DNA from: Caldicellulosiruptor owensensis OL
Lineage (GTDB): Bacteria > Bacillota > Thermoanaerobacteria > Caldicellulosiruptorales > Caldicellulosiruptoraceae
Assembly: GCF_000166335.1 (NCBI RefSeq)
Contig: NC_014657.1
Span: forward strand, 1,108,501 to 1,172,500
Direction: 5' to 3'
DNA length: 64,000 nt
Shown: positions 37,368-63,914 of the stretch, piece after piece
Numbering within the stretch: the first letter of the stretch is position 1
Layout: each line of letters opens with the position of its first letter
Notes under the pieces: generated by a model
The model's database searches: none
Told to the model about the DNA's origin: nothing
What the model saw: the letters and a program-made list of their open reading frames with translations, nothing else
Position numbers and translations under genes: made by a program

Positions 37368-37544
37368 ATGTCAGAAGTAAGAGTGGGTGAGAACGAATCA
37401 CTCGATAGTGCCCTCAGAAGATTTAAAAAGAAATGTGCAGAAGCTGGGGTTTTAGCTGAGCTCAGGAAAAGAGAGCACTATGAAAGCCCAAGCGTTAGAA
37501 GAAAGAAAAAATCAGAAGCTGCACGTAGGAGAAAGCGCAGATAA
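37368..37544 (+). CDS. rpsU: Ribosomal protein bS21
   Basis: A 58-residue small-subunit protein with [20 protein letters not shown] and the strongly basic C-terminus [18 protein letters not shown] 37368 is preferred over an in-frame ATG-like start at 37350 because of the GGGGAGGGAG ribosome site. It is followed by yqeY, the classical Firmicute pair. Confidence 0.95.
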
Positions 37545-56319: not shown

Positions 56320-56766
56320 ATGAAAGAGGTTGTGTTAGAGATTTTAAAGAATAAGGCGCTTGAGGTTGGTGTTGTCAGCTGGTTTGCTGCACAGTTTTTA
56401 AAAATTGTGATAGCATTTATCATGACACAAAAAATTGACCTTAAATGGTTCATAAGCTCTGGGGGGATGCCAAGTTCTCATTCAGCGTTTGCATGTGGGC
56501 TTTCAACTGCTGTGGGACTAATAGATGGTTTTAGTTCCACCAATTTTGCTATATCATTAACATTTACATTAATTGTGATGTACGATGCGGCAGGAGTAAG
56601 AAGAGAGGCTGGAAAACAGGCACAGACTTTAAACGAGATAATTGAGATGTATCTTTCACCACATTACAAGCCTCAATATAAACTAAAAGAGCTCATAGGA
56701 CACAAACCTACAGAGGTCTTTGCAGGAGCTGTAGTTGGAATATTAATTGCCACAATAATGATTTGA
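56320..56766 (+). CDS. YuiD-like divergent PAP2 membrane protein (DUF212)
   Basis: The 148-residue product is of the DUF212/divergent PAP2 family, with SSGGMPSSHSAFACGLSTAVG (PSSH motif, about 46-66), YDAAGVRREAGKQAQTLNEI and a C-terminal GHKPTEVFAGAVVGIL. ATG 56320 follows GAGGGAAAG; a longer frame from 56251 overlaps pcrA and is less likely. It starts 8 nt after pcrA. Phosphatase activity is only presumed. It lies just upstream of the OLE RNA promoter. Confidence 0.85.
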   Translation: MKEVVLEILKNKALEVGVVSWFAAQFLKIVIAFIMTQKIDLKWFISSGGMPSSHSAFACGLSTAVGLIDGFSSTNFAISLTFTLIVMYDAAGVRREAGKQAQTLNEIIEMYLSPHYKPQYKLKELIGHKPTEVFAGAVVGILIATIMI

Positions 56767-56791
56767 AGCAAAGCAAAAGCTGTGATATAAT
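56763..56791 (+). promoter_or_regulatory. Sigma-A promoter of the OLE RNA - oapA unit
   Basis: TTGAAG (56763-56768) and a perfect TATAAT (56786-56791) are separated by 17 nt. The -35 overlaps the stop codon of the upstream gene. Transcription should begin near 56798, about 30 nt before the first helix of the RNA. Confidence 0.75.
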
Positions 56792-56827
56792 ATTATTCTG
56801 AAAACTAAATAATCAAGAACGTTAAAA

Positions 56828-57442
56828 TGGGATAGGGTGATGCAGTATCCTAGTCAGAGTGGCTGCTTTCGAAGGCGGGCCTAAAAATCCGCCAAAGGGC
56901 ACACCGATGAAGTTCCTGGTTTCGGCTTCTGACGCCCAGTCAGGGGTTGGAGCTGGGAGTAAGGGTTAAGGGAGTCCTGCAATGGCATGCAGGATGCAAC
57001 CCTTTTCCCGTGGAGGCTAACGCACAAAAAGACAGAACTTTTTGTGCGTTAGTAAAACCTACCGCCAGGTGCGTCCTTTTTGAGAAAGGATGTGCTTGGG
57101 GTAGTGTAGCCTGCCTTGAGCGGAATAGACGGATGGCCGAATTTCTGGCCTTCCTAAAAATAGGGCCCGTTTTTAGGAAGGTCTTGAGGCCTGAAATCTA
57201 TTTCGCAAAAGAGGCTAGAAAGCATGCCCTCTGTCGAGGAAAGCTCCTAGGCTGTGCCAGGTATTTGGCTTTACGAAGGGGATTAAAGTGCGGACTAAGT
57301 GGCGATCTGGTTGTGTGTTGGGCAACCGCACACCCAAACTTTTAAAGGGAAACCGCCTCCTGGCGACGGGAGGTAAGTTTGGGGGAAATCCTACCAGACC
57401 TTAAGCCGCAAAATTTACCCTTCGTAAAATCACCCTATCCCA
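56828..57442 (+). ncRNA. ole: OLE RNA (ornate, large, extremophilic RNA)
   Basis: A ~615-nt structured RNA fills the space between the YuiD-like gene and oapA. Its ends form a perfect 14-bp helix: TGGGATAGGGTGAT (56828-56841) with ATCACCCTATCCCA (57429-57442). Inside are many helices, for example CTAACGCACAAAAAG (57017-57031) with CTTTTTGTGCGTTAG (57038-57052), CCTTCCTAAAAA (57149-57160) with TTTTTAGGAAGG (57170-57181), TCCTGC/GCAGGA at 56975-56994, and CCCAAACTT (57333-57341) with AAGTTTGGG (57375-57383) enclosing CCTCC/GGAGG. GC content is well above its neighbours. Size, position before the OapA gene and linkage to dxs and tlyA match OLE RNA known from extremophilic Firmicutes, which binds OapA at the membrane and helps with cold, alcohol and Mg stress. 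Confidence 0.93.
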
Positions 57443-57486
57443 ATAAATTTATATATTTTTCAAAAGTGTGTTTTGGGAGATGAAAA

Positions 57487-58038
57487 ATGAAAAATAAGAA
57501 AAAAATGCAGAATAAAAAGAGAGAATATTTCAAATGGACACTAATATTGTTTATTTTATCGTTTTTACTGTCGGCTACTCTAAACTACATTTCAAGCTAT
57601 GTATCAGAAAGATTACCTGTGACAATTTCATTCATACTTTTATTTTGTATAATTTTATTAGGAATAATCTTTGACATAATTGGGATTGCTACAACCGCAG
57701 CTGATGAGGTTCCTTTTCACGCAATGGCTGCAAAGAAAGTAAAAGGTGCAAAGGTGAGTGTATGGCTCATAAAAAATGCAAGCAAAGTATCTTCTATTTG
57801 CAACGATGTTATAGGAGATATATGCGGAATATTGAGTGGAGCACTTTCTGCAAGTATTGTGTTTTATATATCAAAAAATAGCAAAGCCAATCCCATTCTT
57901 CTTTCAATACTTTTGACTGCAATGGTTGCTGCTATAACAATATCTGGCAAATCGATTGGAAAATATTTTGCAATCAAAAAGAGTAATGAGATTGTAAAAA
58001 TAAGCGGAAAGATTCTTGGAATATTTCTAAAAATGTAG
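57487..58038 (+). CDS. oapA: OLE-associated membrane protein OapA
   Basis: This 183-residue protein has a very basic N-terminus (about residues 1-15), hydrophobic segments at about 17-36, 44-62, 109-128 and 136-153, and basic loops. Conserved-looking acidic/small-residue motifs are FDIIGIATTAADEVPFHAMAA (in two parts, 62-82) and NDVIGDICGILSGA (about 106-119). OapA binds OLE RNA and brings it to the membrane. It follows the RNA by 44 nt with a GGGAG ribosome site and no terminator between, so RNA and mRNA are probably one transcript that is processed. Confidence 0.9.
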   Translation: MKNKKKMQNKKREYFKWTLILFILSFLLSATLNYISSYVSERLPVTISFILLFCIILLGIIFDIIGIATTAADEVPFHAMAAKKVKGAKVSVWLIKNASKVSSICNDVIGDICGILSGALSASIVFYISKNSKANPILLSILLTAMVAAITISGKSIGKYFAIKKSNEIVKISGKILGIFLKM

Positions 58039-58056
58039 TTTGGGAAGTGAGAGGTA

Positions 58057-59907
58057 TTGGGTATATTAGAAAAGGTAAACTATCCTGAAGATATAAAAAG
58101 ATTGAGTATATCCGAACTCTATAAACTTGCCGAAGAAATAAGAGAATTTCTGTTATATAACATCGCCAATACAGGTGGACATTTGGCAGCAAATTTGGGG
58201 GTTGTTGAACTGACTCTTGCTCTGCTAAAAGTATTTGACCCACCAAAAGATAAAATTGTGTGGGATGTAGGGCATCAGTGTTATGTTTACAAGATATTGA
58301 CAGGGCGAAAACAAAAATTTAATACTTTAAGGAAATTTGGTGGCTTGAGCGGTTTTCCAAAATCAAAAGAGAGTATTTTTGATGCATTTGATACTGGTCA
58401 CAGTTCTACTTCTATTTCTGTTGCACTGGGATTTGCAGTTGCGCGCGATCTTGAAAATGAGCACTATAATGTAATTGCAGTAATAGGAGATGGAGCTTTA
58501 ACTGGAGGACTTGCATATGAAGGACTCAATAATGCCGGCAGGTACAATGGTAAGCTTCTTGTAATTTTGAATGACAACGACATGTCAATCTCCAAAAATG
58601 TTGGTGCGATTGCAAAATATCTATCAAAGGTACGAACAAAACCACGTTATTTTAAATTGAAAAAAGCTGCTGATAGCTTGGTAGAAGGAATCCCGGTTGT
58701 TGGCAAAAATCTTAGCAGCTTTGTAAGAAAGGTAAAAGGGAGTTTAAAATACTTTTTCTTTCCTGGAACTTTGTTTGAAGCGCTTGGATTTGAATATTAT
58801 GGACCTATTGATGGTCATGACATAGAAAGACTTTGTGAAGTATTTGAAAGTGTTAAGGATTTTGAAAGACCTGTTTTGGTTCATGTGGTTACACAAAAGG
58901 GGAGAGGATATGAACATGCTGAAAGATTTCCAGAAAAATTCCATGGTGTTCCGCCATTTGACATAGAAACAGGAAATCATCTGTCTGACAATACTTCAAA
59001 GACATTTTCAGAGGTTTTGGGTGATAAACTTTGCGAGCTTGCCAAGAATAATCCGAAGATATTAGCAATCACAGCTGCAATGCCAGATGGTACTGGTCTT
59101 AGCAGGTTTGCAAAGATGTATCCTCAAAGGTTTTTTGACGTTGGAATAGCAGAAGAACATGCAGTTACTTTTGCAGGTGCTCTTGCGAAAGAGGGATTTA
59201 AACCGTTTGTTGCCATATATTCAACCTTCCTACAAAGAGCTTTTGACCAGATTATTCATGATGTGTGTCTTCAAAATTTGAATGTGGTCTTCTGTGTAGA
59301 CAGAGCGGGTCTTGTTGGCGAGGATGGAGAGACGCACCATGGAAGTTTTGATATATCGTATTTGAGCCTAATTCCTAACTTAACATTGATGGTGCCAAAG
59401 GATACAAAAGAATTTGAAATGATGATAGAATTTGCAGCTTTCTATCAGGACGGACCTATTGCGATAAGATATCCGCGCGGAAGCTGCAAACAGGTAGGTC
59501 TTTATGATGAAATTAAACTTTCTGAACCGGAGATATTAAAAGAAGGAAAATACTTGGCCATATTTTCTATTGGAAGACATGTTTCAATGTTGTATGATAT
59601 TATTAGCAAAAACAAGTTGGATGTAACACTGGTAAATGTAAGATTTATAAAACCCTTAAATACTGAGATTATAAAAAGAATACTCACTGTACACCCGAAA
59701 ATTCTAATTGTAGAGGACAATAGTGTTATCGGTGGGCTTGGTGAAAAAATAAAAAGTATTATAGCTGAAGAAAAATCAGCAGAGATTAAGCACATAGCTA
59801 TACCTGATAGATTTATTCCTCATGGTTCAATTTCTCAGCTTTATTCCATGCTTGGGATGGATAGAGAAAACTTAACAAGAGTAATTATGGAGTTGATAGA
59901 AAGTTGA
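58057..59907 (+). CDS. dxs: 1-deoxy-D-xylulose-5-phosphate synthase
   Basis: The enzyme condenses pyruvate and glyceraldehyde-3-phosphate in the MEP isoprenoid pathway, using thiamine diphosphate. The 616-residue protein shows GGHLAANLGVVELTLAL, WDVGHQCYVYKILTGR, the ThDP motif VIGDGALTGGLAYEGLNNAG in two parts (GDG...N), and the transketolase part with DVGIAEEHAVTFAGALA and YSTFLQRAFDQIIHDV. TTG start behind GAAGTGAGAGG. Linkage with OLE-oapA is conserved in other OLE carriers. Confidence 0.96.
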   Translation: MGILEKVNYPEDIKRLSISELYKLAEEIREFLLYNIANTGGHLAANLGVVELTLALLKVFDPPKDKIVWDVGHQCYVYKILTGRKQKFNTLRKFGGLSGFPKSKESIFDAFDTGHSSTSISVALGFAVARDLENEHYNVIAVIGDGALTGGLAYEGLNNAGRYNGKLLVILNDNDMSISKNVGAIAKYLSKVRTKPRYFKLKKAADSLVEGIPVVGKNLSSFVRKVKGSLKYFFFPGTLFEALGFEYYGPIDGHDIERLCEVFESVKDFERPVLVHVVTQKGRGYEHAERFPEKFHGVPPFDIETGNHLSDNTSKTFSEVLGDKLCELAKNNPKILAITAAMPDGTGLSRFAKMYPQRFFDVGIAEEHAVTFAGALAKEGFKPFVAIYSTFLQRAFDQIIHDVCLQNLNVVFCVDRAGLVGEDGETHHGSFDISYLSLIPNLTLMVPKDTKEFEMMIEFAAFYQDGPIAIRYPRGSCKQVGLYDEIKLSEPEILKEGKYLAIFSIGRHVSMLYDIISKNKLDVTLVNVRFIKPLNTEIIKRILTVHPKILIVEDNSVIGGLGEKIKSIIAEEKSAEIKHIAIPDRFIPHGSISQLYSMLGMDRENLTRVIMELIES

Positions 59908-60733: not shown

Positions 60734-61087
60734 ATGAAATTAACAAAGATCAAGGAACTTTTAAACTGCAAGGTTTATTTCGAGCCGGAAGAACTATGTA
60801 GCGAAGAATTTTTAAATGCATGTGGTTCTGATCTTATGAGCGACGTTTTGGCATTTGTAAAAGAGAAGGTGATTTTATTGACAGGTCTTGTAAATCCTCA
60901 AGTGATAAGGACTGCAGAGATGATGGATATAAAAGCAGTAATAATTGTTCGGGGTAAACAGCCATCCGAAGAAATGTTAAAACTTGCAAAGGAGAAATGC
61001 ATAGCCCTTCTTGGAACGGATTATCCTATGTTTCAAGCATGTGGAATACTTTATGAAAACGGACTTGGGAAAGAAGGGTGTTGCTAA
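60734..61087 (+). CDS. DRTGG-domain protein, copy 1
   Basis: The 117-residue protein is an isolated DRTGG-like domain: MKLTKIKELLNCKVYFEPEE leads into VLAFVKEKVILLTGLVNPQVIRTAEMMDIKAVIIVRGKQP, with a terminal CGILYENGLGKEGCC. DRTGG domains are probable ligand-binding regulatory modules found in PTA and CBS-domain proteins. In clostridial genomes small DRTGG genes are found with sensory hydrogenase homologues, as here. The last codons overlap the next gene by 10 nt. The cysteine pair at the end is unexplained. Confidence 0.8.
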   Translation: MKLTKIKELLNCKVYFEPEELCSEEFLNACGSDLMSDVLAFVKEKVILLTGLVNPQVIRTAEMMDIKAVIIVRGKQPSEEMLKLAKEKCIALLGTDYPMFQACGILYENGLGKEGCC

Positions 61088-61512
61088 GAAAGATGCTGCT
61101 TGAGCTGGAGTTTGAGATTGAGCCGGGCAATTTTATATTAGCTGGTGAAGCTTCTTCTAAGATTAAAGAAACTTTAAAAAAACTTGGAGTAAAGCCAGAT
61201 ATACTGAAAAAAGTTGCCATTGTTTCTTATGAAGCTGAGATGAATATAGTTATACATTCTATTGGCGGTATTTTGAAAGCCATAATTTCAAAGGACAAGA
61301 TTGAAATAATAGCTCAAGACAGTGGACCGGGTATTGAAAACATTGAGCTTGCCATGAAAGAAGGATATTCCACTGCTCCGGAAGAGATAAGAAACTTGGG
61401 ATTTGGAGCCGGTATGGGTTTACCGAACATGAAGAAGTACTCAGATTATTTTGAGATTGACTCACAAAAAGGCAAAGGTACAAAGGTGTATATGATCATT
61501 TACAATAAATAA
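61078..61512 (+). CDS. Stand-alone GHKL ATPase (RsbW/anti-sigma-factor-like)
   Basis: This protein is just an ATP-binding domain of histidine-kinase type, 144 residues from GTG 61078 (ATG 61093 is an alternative). The N box is EAEMNIVIHS (about 51-60), the G1 box AQDSGPGIENIEL and the G2 region NLGFGAGMGLPNMKKYSDYF. There is no sensor or phospho-acceptor histidine domain. RsbW-like proteins are serine kinases or anti-sigma factors; which applies is unknown. The operon position before the hydrogenase homologue suggests it relays a redox signal. Confidence 0.82.
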   Translation: MLLRKMLLELEFEIEPGNFILAGEASSKIKETLKKLGVKPDILKKVAIVSYEAEMNIVIHSIGGILKAIISKDKIEIIAQDSGPGIENIELAMKEGYSTAPEEIRNLGFGAGMGLPNMKKYSDYFEIDSQKGKGTKVYMIIYNK

Positions 61513-61547
61513 TGACCATCTTCAAAATGTGAGGAAGTGAACTATAG

Positions 61548-62879
61548 ATGAAAAATTTGCACTCTATAATGCTTGACAAAGATAAGTGTAAAGGGTGTAC
61601 AAACTGTATTAAAAGATGCCCAACTGAAGCCATTAGAGTACGAAACTCAAAAGCAAGGATTATTGATCAGAGATGCATCGACTGCGGAGAATGTATAAGA
61701 ACATGTCCATACCATGCGAAATATGCTGTAACAAATAGTTTGGAAGAAATAAGAAAATTTGAATATAAAATTGCTCTGCCTGCACCTTCGTTTTACGCCC
61801 AGTTTGAGGTTGATGATGTAAATAAGCTACTGTATGCTTTGCTTGAACTGGGATTTGATGATGTGTTTGAGGTAGCAAAAGCAGCTGAAATAGTAACCCA
61901 CTTCACAAAGCAGTTTATTCTATCTGAGAAAAACAAAAAACCAATAATTTCTTCTGCATGTCCGGCAGTTGTCAGGCTTATCCAGACAAAATTTTCAGAC
62001 CTTATAGAGAATATCCTGCCAATCGCCTCACCTATGGAAGTTGCTGCATATATTGCTAAGAAAATGATACAAAAAGAAAAGGGAATTGAAGAAGGTAAAA
62101 TAGGAGTTTTTTTTATCTCTCCATGTGCAGCAAAGATGACATATGTAAACAGTCCCCTTGGTTTTAAACGCTCATATGTGGATGGGGTAATAGCGATAAA
62201 AGATGTTTATGGACTTGTAAGAAGTAAGCTAAGAGAAATAAGAGATGTAAAACACCTTTCAATTGCCTCGGGCAAAGGTATTGGTTGGGCAGCATCAGGC
62301 GGTGAAAGCTTGGCGTTGGAAATTGAAGAGTATGTAAATGTAGATGGTATTCACAATGTAGTAAAAGTTTTAGAAGAGATTGAAAATGGCAGACTCAAAG
62401 ATATTGTATATTTTGAAGGTCTTGCTTGCAGCGGTGGGTGTGTCGGAGGACCGCTTACAGTGGAAAATCCGTATGTTGCTAAAAATCGTATTAAAAGATT
62501 GTCTTCCAAATTAAAAGACAAAGAAGAGAGTTTTTCATCGTGGACAGAGGAGATTATTAATAGTTTTTCTCTCAAGCTTGAGGATGTTCTTTTTGAAAAA
62601 GAATTAGAAACAAACCCCGTCCTTGAACTTGACTCTGATATTGAGAGAGCTATGGAAAAGTTTGAAAAGTTAAATAATATCCTTAGTATGTTGCCGGGTT
62701 TGGACTGTGGGGCTTGTGGTTCACCTACATGCAAAACTCTTGCTGAGGATATAGTGCGTGGTTTTGCCAATGACACAGACTGTATCTTTATTCTCAGAGA
62801 AAGCATAAAAGAGCTTGCAAACAAGATGGTTGAGCTTTCAAATAAACTACCACCATCACTTGAAAGGAATGATGAATAG
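61548..62879 (+). CDS. Sensory-type [FeFe]-hydrogenase homologue
   Basis: The 443-residue protein starts with two [4Fe-4S] ferredoxin motifs (CKGCTNCIKRCP, about 14-25; CIDCGECIRTCP, about 43-54). The H-domain follows with H-cluster loops SSACPAVVRLI (about 133-143), FISPCAAKM and GLACSGGCVGGP; the four cluster cysteines appear kept. The cysteine used for proton transfer in catalytic enzymes (TSCCP) is Ala here, as known for sensory HydS types. A C-terminal CGACGSPTCKTL motif (about 386-397) binds another cluster. There is no PAS domain. It is likely a redox or hydrogen sensor rather than a main hydrogenase. Confidence 0.82.
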   Translation: MKNLHSIMLDKDKCKGCTNCIKRCPTEAIRVRNSKARIIDQRCIDCGECIRTCPYHAKYAVTNSLEEIRKFEYKIALPAPSFYAQFEVDDVNKLLYALLELGFDDVFEVAKAAEIVTHFTKQFILSEKNKKPIISSACPAVVRLIQTKFSDLIENILPIASPMEVAAYIAKKMIQKEKGIEEGKIGVFFISPCAAKMTYVNSPLGFKRSYVDGVIAIKDVYGLVRSKLREIRDVKHLSIASGKGIGWAASGGESLALEIEEYVNVDGIHNVVKVLEEIENGRLKDIVYFEGLACSGGCVGGPLTVENPYVAKNRIKRLSSKLKDKEESFSSWTEEIINSFSLKLEDVLFEKELETNPVLELDSDIERAMEKFEKLNNILSMLPGLDCGACGSPTCKTLAEDIVRGFANDTDCIFILRESIKELANKMVELSNKLPPSLERNDE

Positions 62880-63229
62880 TGCCAAGCATTTTGGATTTAG
62901 GCAGGTATTTTGAATTGGCAAATGGGATTGTAAAGGATGAGCAGTATGAAAATGTGTACATTGGAGATGTTTTGAGTTTTGCAATATCGCATATTAAGGA
63001 CAACAGTATCTGGATTACCATTCAAAACAATGTGAATGTGGTTGCCATAGCAACTCTCAGAGAAGTGAAAGCAATAATTTTGACAGAAGGAGTAAAACCC
63101 GACCCTGATATGCTTAAAAAATCAATAGAGCAGCATATTCCAATTTTTACAACAGAACTTTCACATTTTGAAACAGCAAGGCTGCTGATTCTTAAAGAAA
63201 AGGGAGATAAAAATGAAGCTTTATTATGA
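62879..63229 (+). CDS. DRTGG-domain protein, copy 2
   Basis: The 116-residue protein has a second DRTGG-like domain: VYIGDVLSFAISHIKDNSIWITIQNNVNVVAIATLREVKAIILTEGVKPD read in several segments. It is only distantly like copy 1, so an old duplication is likely. Start GTG overlaps the hydrogenase stop by one base, and its end overlaps the PHP gene by 17 nt; the unit is tightly packed. Ligand unknown. Confidence 0.78.
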   Translation: MPSILDLGRYFELANGIVKDEQYENVYIGDVLSFAISHIKDNSIWITIQNNVNVVAIATLREVKAIILTEGVKPDPDMLKKSIEQHIPIFTTELSHFETARLLILKEKGDKNEALL

Positions 63230-63914
63230 CCTTCACATTCATTCGTTGCTTTCTCCATGTGCAGACAATGATATGACCCCGCATAATATAATAAATATGG
63301 CTAAGTTAAAGGGATTAGATGTTATATCTGTGACAGACCATAACTGCACCTTAAACCTTGAAAGTTTTTTAGAAGTGGCAAACTTGCTTGATATCTTGTT
63401 TATACCTGGGGTTGAGATAGAAACAGAAGAGGAGATTCATGTATTACTGTATTTTAAGCACAAAGATGTTTGTATTATAAGAGAATTTCAGGGCATTATT
63501 GAAAAGCATCTACCTTTTATAAAGCTCAGAGAAGATATTTATGGTAATCAGTATATTGTTGATACCCAGGACAATGTAATTGGAAGCTATGAAAAACTTC
63601 TTCTTCAACCGCTTTCACTAAGCTTAAAACAAATTTATGAGATTTCTAAATTCTATAATATGGTTTTTGTACCTGCACACATAAACAGACAGTCTTTTGG
63701 TGTAATTGGGAGGCTTGGCTTTTTGCCCGAAGAGCTAATTGACTTGACCTTTTTAGAGGTTTCTAAGATCACTGAAATAGAATTTGCCAAGTTTCTTCCT
63801 CAAAACAGAAACTATGTCTTCTTACATTCATCAGATGCTCATCATCTGTGGGAGATAAACGAAAGAGAGTTTTTTATTGAAAGTGATATACTGTATACAA
63901 TATTTTTCGATTAA
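63213..63914 (+). CDS. PHP-domain phosphoesterase
   Basis: The 233-residue protein is a stand-alone PHP domain: YYDLHIHSLLSPCADNDMTP (metal residues His, His, Asp), VISVTDHNCTL, GVEIETEEEIHVLLYF, VPAHINRQSFGVIG and the late SSDAHHLWEI. Such proteins hydrolyse nucleotides or phosphoesters; the YciV/RNase AM group acts on short oligonucleotides. The substrate here is unknown. AAAGGGAGA lies before the ATG. This is the last gene in the window. Confidence 0.83.
   Translation: MKLYYDLHIHSLLSPCADNDMTPHNIINMAKLKGLDVISVTDHNCTLNLESFLEVANLLDILFIPGVEIETEEEIHVLLYFKHKDVCIIREFQGIIEKHLPFIKLREDIYGNQYIVDTQDNVIGSYEKLLLQPLSLSLKQIYEISKFYNMVFVPAHINRQSFGVIGRLGFLPEELIDLTFLEVSKITEIEFAKFLPQNRNYVFLHSSDAHHLWEINEREFFIESDILYTIFFD

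Follow-up and report, generated by a model that had tools for sequence, protein, structure and literature searches.

A complete OLE RNA with a 14-bp closing helix, and its predicted protein partners, in Caldicellulosiruptor owensensis

What occupies the 720-nt intergenic stretch upstream of the gene at 57487 in the 64-kb stretch of DNA analysed here (the window)? The earlier note, made from the letters and their open reading frames, read it as OLE RNA closed by a perfect 14-bp helix and followed by the gene for its partner OapA, and it named the Rfam OLE covariance model as the check. We address here the identity of this RNA, the genes that surround it, the helices from which it is built and the particle that it may form.

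Identity and distribution of the RNA

The Rfam OLE model RF01071, with a gathering score of 50 bits, matches the locus over model positions 1-616 at 542.5 bits (E = 5.6e-157), a full-length match that bears out the OLE assignment and the sole Rfam match in the window. It extends slightly beyond the closing helix on both sides (56821-57449 versus 56828-57442).

56821..57449, + strand: OLE RNA, full-length type (RF01071 match)

On its sequence elements this RNA is of the full-length type, and not variant 1 or 2, since it has P7, P8, P9 and the P12-P13 hairpin. The locus is a complete, ordinary member of an already known family rather than a new kind of RNA. Database-wide collections already hold 8,585 non-redundant OLEs (PMC12286853) and 2,822 OLE hits from Bacillota (PMC11332333), so this copy has probably been catalogued; our literature search found no mention of OLE RNA together with Caldicellulosiruptor. 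A single copy is present in the genome, which is one contig of 2.43 Mb. Every genome searched in the family (13) and in the class (36) has OLE, as do 290 of the 398 sampled from the phylum, against none of the 14 control genomes.

The description of the locus as a GC-richer, hairpin-dense structured RNA also holds. Its G+C fraction is 0.51, against 0.35 for the window, and the minimum free energy (MFE) of the enclosed 615 nt is -304.7 kcal/mol, 12 standard deviations below that of 20 dinucleotide-preserving shuffles (-213.7 +/- 7.45; z = -12.2). In the MFE fold the closing helix forms together with a long P3 and helices P4-P9, and the 3' part is multi-branched; helix names were assigned by position after the literature numbering rather than by comparison with a published diagram.

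Among the other genomes surveyed, several (G198, G227, G245 and G270; loci L273-L276 and L279-L283) show OLE matches in pieces, often broken near model position 278. Split OLE genes were considered for genomes with two to three matches and rejected, as most of the partial matches lie at contig starts. Strong hairpins probably broke the assemblies at these points, and the genes themselves are unlikely to be split.

Transcription, neighbouring genes and protein partners

The elements of the locus that bear on its expression and its proteins are as follows.

56763..56791, + strand: predicted OLE promoter, TTGAAG, 17-nt spacer, TATAAT, with TGn (extended -10); consensus scan
57487..58038, + strand: oapA, 183 aa, predicted membrane protein partner of OLE (CNNM match, synteny, invariant residues)
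37374..37538, + strand: rpsU, encoding bS21 (Ribosomal_S21, 2e-23)

The predicted promoter overlaps the end of the upstream DUF212 gene and is conserved in the alignment of the genus. Its extended -10 form recurs widely, the motif TGnTA(A/C/T)AAT lying upstream of 93 of 110 OLEs as against 1.9% in shuffles. Across OLE loci the motif stands at varied distances from the closing helix, and in this genus an extra leader of about 30 nt separates the predicted start from P1.

No terminator-like site was found on the + strand in 56600-58100, so OLE probably also shares a transcript with oapA-dxs-tlyA. The RNA would then be trimmed from that longer transcript, as has been reported for H. halodurans, where OLE is co-transcribed and trimmed (PMC9723947). 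The same arrangement raises another reading, in which the RNA is a long structured 5' leader of oapA that acts in cis, much as a riboswitch does; oapA starts 45 nt past the closing helix, with no terminator-like site on the + strand in between. However, the family is known in H. halodurans as an abundant, separate RNA of ~630 nt with its own RNP (PMC9723947), a conserved helix closes the ends of OLE, and co-transcription and a free RNA are compatible with each other. We consider a cis-acting leader very unlikely and retain a complete OLE RNA that would work within a particle of its own.

The adjacent gene had been called oapA, and our results agree, given its synteny, a weak CNNM match and an invariant DxxxD pair. 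The CNNM match reaches 25.1 bits, against a curated cut-off of 28.4 (E = 1.6e-5). An OapA relative is present in all 37 genomes of the class and within the fetched flank of each of 110 OLE loci. Residues D63, G87, D107, G110, D111 and G118 are invariant, and the DxxxD pair occurs in 111 of 111 aligned sequences. D107 and D111 appear, by spacing rather than direct alignment, to correspond to D100 and D104 of H. halodurans, mutation of which gives the PM1 phenotype (PMC9723947). A comparison with solved structures returned no sequence match for OapA. The likeness of OapA to MpfA has been published, as has an anticorrelation between MpfA and OLE (PMC11332333). Here, a CNNM search of the genome returned OapA as its sole match and no protein of the MpfA type (CNNM + CBS + CorC), which fits the reported anticorrelation.

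Candidates for the other known partners are encoded elsewhere in the genome. A 93-aa KOW-type protein between map and infA matches the OapB structure 7k9b (E = 1.9e-10) and is probably OapB. Similarly, an L7Ae/YbxF-type protein encoded between rpoC and rpsL is the probable OapC. The small ribosomal protein bS21 is a reported OLE partner (PMC12054373). Its gene, rpsU, is also in the window, ~19 kb upstream of ole.

On the 3' side of tlyA, at 60734-63914, are genes for DRTGG, HATPase, iron-hydrogenase-like Fe-S, DRTGG and PHP domain proteins. This region takes the place of the NAD kinase, argR and recN genes found in a record from Pusillibacter faecalis, a 504-kb replicon filed as a conjugative plasmid (NZ_AP023421.1). 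Its OLE-like stretch (200854-201470; locus L268) has the usual chromosomal set of neighbours, namely the CNNM/OapA gene, dxs, tlyA, NAD kinase, argR and recN. The replicon may be either a chromid or a plasmid to which a core locus was transferred. A viral origin was considered and rejected; IMG/VR yielded no match to the OapA query or to the OLE motif, and one plasmid record holds a distant OLE.

Internal helices, the closing helix and the length of P3

Between its ends the RNA is organized into the following elements.

56842..56853, + strand: P2, 5' strand; proposed partner 57247-57255, 9 bp with a UAU bulge
56855..56870, + strand: P3, 5' strand (16 nt); partner 57218-57233
57218..57233, + strand: P3, 3' strand; pairs with 56855-56870
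56874..56893, + strand: P4 hairpin with A-rich loop (sequence and fold)
56913..56959, + strand: P5 hairpin, 21 bp, loop GCCCA (Rfam match, fold)
56968..57004, + strand: P6 hairpin, loop with UGG (Rfam match, fold)
57016..57053, + strand: P7 hairpin, 16 bp (sequence, MFE fold)
57059..57104, + strand: P8 hairpin, with a 17-nt tip insertion relative to the Rfam consensus
57107..57217, + strand: P9 arm; tip 57147-57183 with palindromic loop GGGCCC
57355..57374, + strand: P13-type hairpin, GGCGAC loop (Rfam match, fold)

Both internal stems singled out in the earlier note are recovered. Its 15-bp stem (57017-57052) is P7, present as 15-16 bp at 57016-57053, and its 12-bp stem (57149-57181) is the tip of the P9 hairpin. 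P2 was paired manually, with a duplex fold of -8.4 kcal/mol, and the MFE fold pairs part of its strand elsewhere. For P3, 15 bp are possible with one bulge per strand (duplex fold, -20.9 kcal/mol).

Solved OLE dimers (PMC12286853; PMC12265935) show A-A pairs between P4 loops, which are A-rich (PMC12286853), kissing loops of P5 and P6 (for P5, PMC12265935) and a palindromic P9 loop. The sequence elements of these contacts are all present here, in an A-rich L4, complementarity of L5 with L6 (GCCCA, UGG) and a palindromic L9. P6 is also the bS21 binding site in H. halodurans (PMC12054373). In our RNA it carries UCCU, without the full CCUCCU anti-Shine-Dalgarno mimic of H. halodurans; the mimic being only partial, bS21 binding may differ here. 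The P13 hairpin region is bound by OapB in H. halodurans (PMC9723947).

In this genus the P9 loop (57162-57168; in the same place in L002-L031) carries the palindrome GGGCCC, where other genera of the class have GAGCTC. Each is self-complementary over six bases, compared with the four-base GGCC, GAUC or AGCU of the solved dimer contact (PMC12286853). The loop finder is noisy outside the class, and the wider count was excluded from the evidence.

Could the hairpins instead be incidental to a protein-coding gene? A frame of 132 aa is open at 56947-57345, and two relatives, near-identical or close, keep it open too. Elsewhere in the genus, however, the long frame is interrupted or shifted, the sister genus and more distant groups lack it, and the stretch that it covers fits the RNA covariance model at 542.5 bits. 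The frame not being conserved, we take this reading as refuted and leave it next to no probability.

The ends of the RNA form the closing helix described in the earlier note.

56828..56841, + strand: closing helix (P1), 5' strand (reverse complementarity, MFE fold, covariation in relatives)
57429..57442, + strand: closing helix (P1), 3' strand (reverse complementarity, MFE fold, covariation in relatives)

The sequence TGGGATAGGGTGAT (56828-56841) is the exact reverse complement of ATCACCCTATCCCA (57429-57442). When the 64-kb window is scanned for exact inverted repeats of at least 14 nt whose arms lie within 1 kb of each other, this is the only widely spaced one (587 nt), and none of at least 14 nt with a gap above 400 nt arose in 2000 shuffles of the 720-nt intergenic stretch. 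Unconstrained MFE folding recovers the helix. The RF01071 consensus structure leaves both ends unpaired and thus does not model it.

Relatives make clear how general this helix is. In 69 non-redundant OLEs, positions 1-7 are paired in 94-100% and positions 8-10 in 75-86%, with several pair types, and pairing from position 12 onward is close to that of slid controls, percentages that are biased upward because the 3' strand was placed by best pairing inside a conserved stretch. The inner letters of P1 (ACCAC and its changed partners) occupy identical sites in all OLEs compared. The helix covaries over ~10 bp, which is also its median length in the non-redundant set; it spans 14-16 bp in this genus, 12-14 bp in a second group within the class and 8-12 bp in others, with 12-16 bp in many relatives within the class. 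The claim of a perfect 14-bp closing helix is exact to the base. We judge the helix itself to be a general OLE feature, its 14 bp being a modest clade-level extension and not peculiar to this copy. P1 has been counted within 'domain 2' of OLE (PMC12265935), and we infer that the closing helix described here is the P1 of the literature. An effect of temperature on P1 length was considered and set aside; the genus has 14-16 bp, yet warm-growing species with 8-12 bp also occur among the named records, and we make no claim.

That exact inverted ends flank a G+C-richer island might suggest a mobile element or its remnant with 14-nt terminal inverted repeats, but each genome has a single OLE, which lies next to oapA in all relatives examined, and its end repeats change together as a helix, so that single copy and conserved synteny refute this reading and its probability is negligible.

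The length of P3 deserves separate mention. Its 5' strand measures 15 or 16 nt in every one of the 128 distinct sequences, with letters that vary (mean identity 0.46-0.53). The P5-P8 stretch taken together spans 160-215 nt, and the P9 arm 42-110 nt. A 'typical' P3 has been given as 12 bp (PMC12265935). The fixed length fits the published membrane-spanning model of OLE, itself a proposal, without amounting to proof. We rejected P3 length as proof of membrane crossing, as the P5 arm hardly varies in length either (42 nt in 104 of 115); a rigid core accounts equally well for the constancy of P3. It is tempting to picture P3 as a length-fixed, membrane-crossing strut in all OLEs, with the longer P1 and six-base P9 palindrome of this clade further stabilizing the particle, although we regard this as rather unlikely. 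Any membrane-spanning proposal should account for a fixed P3 beside freely varying P7-P9.

A proposed particle and its relation to known OLE systems

As a whole, we hold with high confidence that the locus encodes a complete OLE RNA, closed by P1, which would form a dimeric RNP at the membrane with a role in stress. Our analysis contributes to this the RNA family, its structure, the partner genes, the lack of an MpfA match and the dimer loop sequences.

For transcription, dimerisation, protein binding, membrane location and the stress role, relatives serve as the guide. We propose a model where an extended -10 promoter of its own probably drives OLE, with additional read-through into oapA-dxs-tlyA. 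The 14-bp P1 would bring the RNA ends together, and two OLE copies would pair through their P4, P5/P6 and P9 loops. OapA would anchor the dimer at the membrane near P2-P4, with OapC (at the kink-turn), OapB (at P12-P13) and bS21 (at P6) joining afterwards. The membrane RNP may then aid adaptation to stress, including Mg2+ and energy stress, in a genome that shows no MpfA-type Mg2+ exporter to substitute for it; the stress roles associated with the OLE family cover Mg2+, cold, alcohol and carbon stress.

OLE is one of the largest structured RNAs of bacteria, and each well-placed copy aids comparison. This genome is a compact case, having one OLE, one OapA, a probable OapB and OapC, bS21 and no MpfA-type protein. 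The class, gene order and composition suggest a heat-loving host. If it is indeed a heat-loving anaerobe, its RNP may have the stability needed for structural studies of the 3' domain.

Several known systems offer points of reference. With the full-length OLE of H. halodurans, and those of Clostridium acetobutylicum and C. botulinum from which structures come, our RNA shares P4-P9 and P12-P13, the whole of RF01071 being matched. It is also alike in having oapA directly downstream, followed by dxs and tlyA, in its probable OapB and OapC, in bS21 and in the lack of an MpfA match. It differs in a P1 of 14 bp (general median ~10), a 17-nt insertion at the tip of P8, the six-base P9 palindrome GGGCCC, a P3 of up to 15 bp versus the typical 12, the partial anti-Shine-Dalgarno mimic of P6 and a DUF212 gene as upstream neighbour. 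OLE variants 1 (TANB77) and 2 (RF39) (PMC11332333) share the RNA family and its conserved nucleotides; in them P7-P9 are shortened or missing, or the OapB site is absent, whereas this copy has all of these. Finally, OapA shares a weak CNNM match with the CNNM and MpfA-CorC Mg2+ transporters. Unlike MpfA, its 183 aa leave no room for CBS and CorC domains, and it is tied to an RNA gene.
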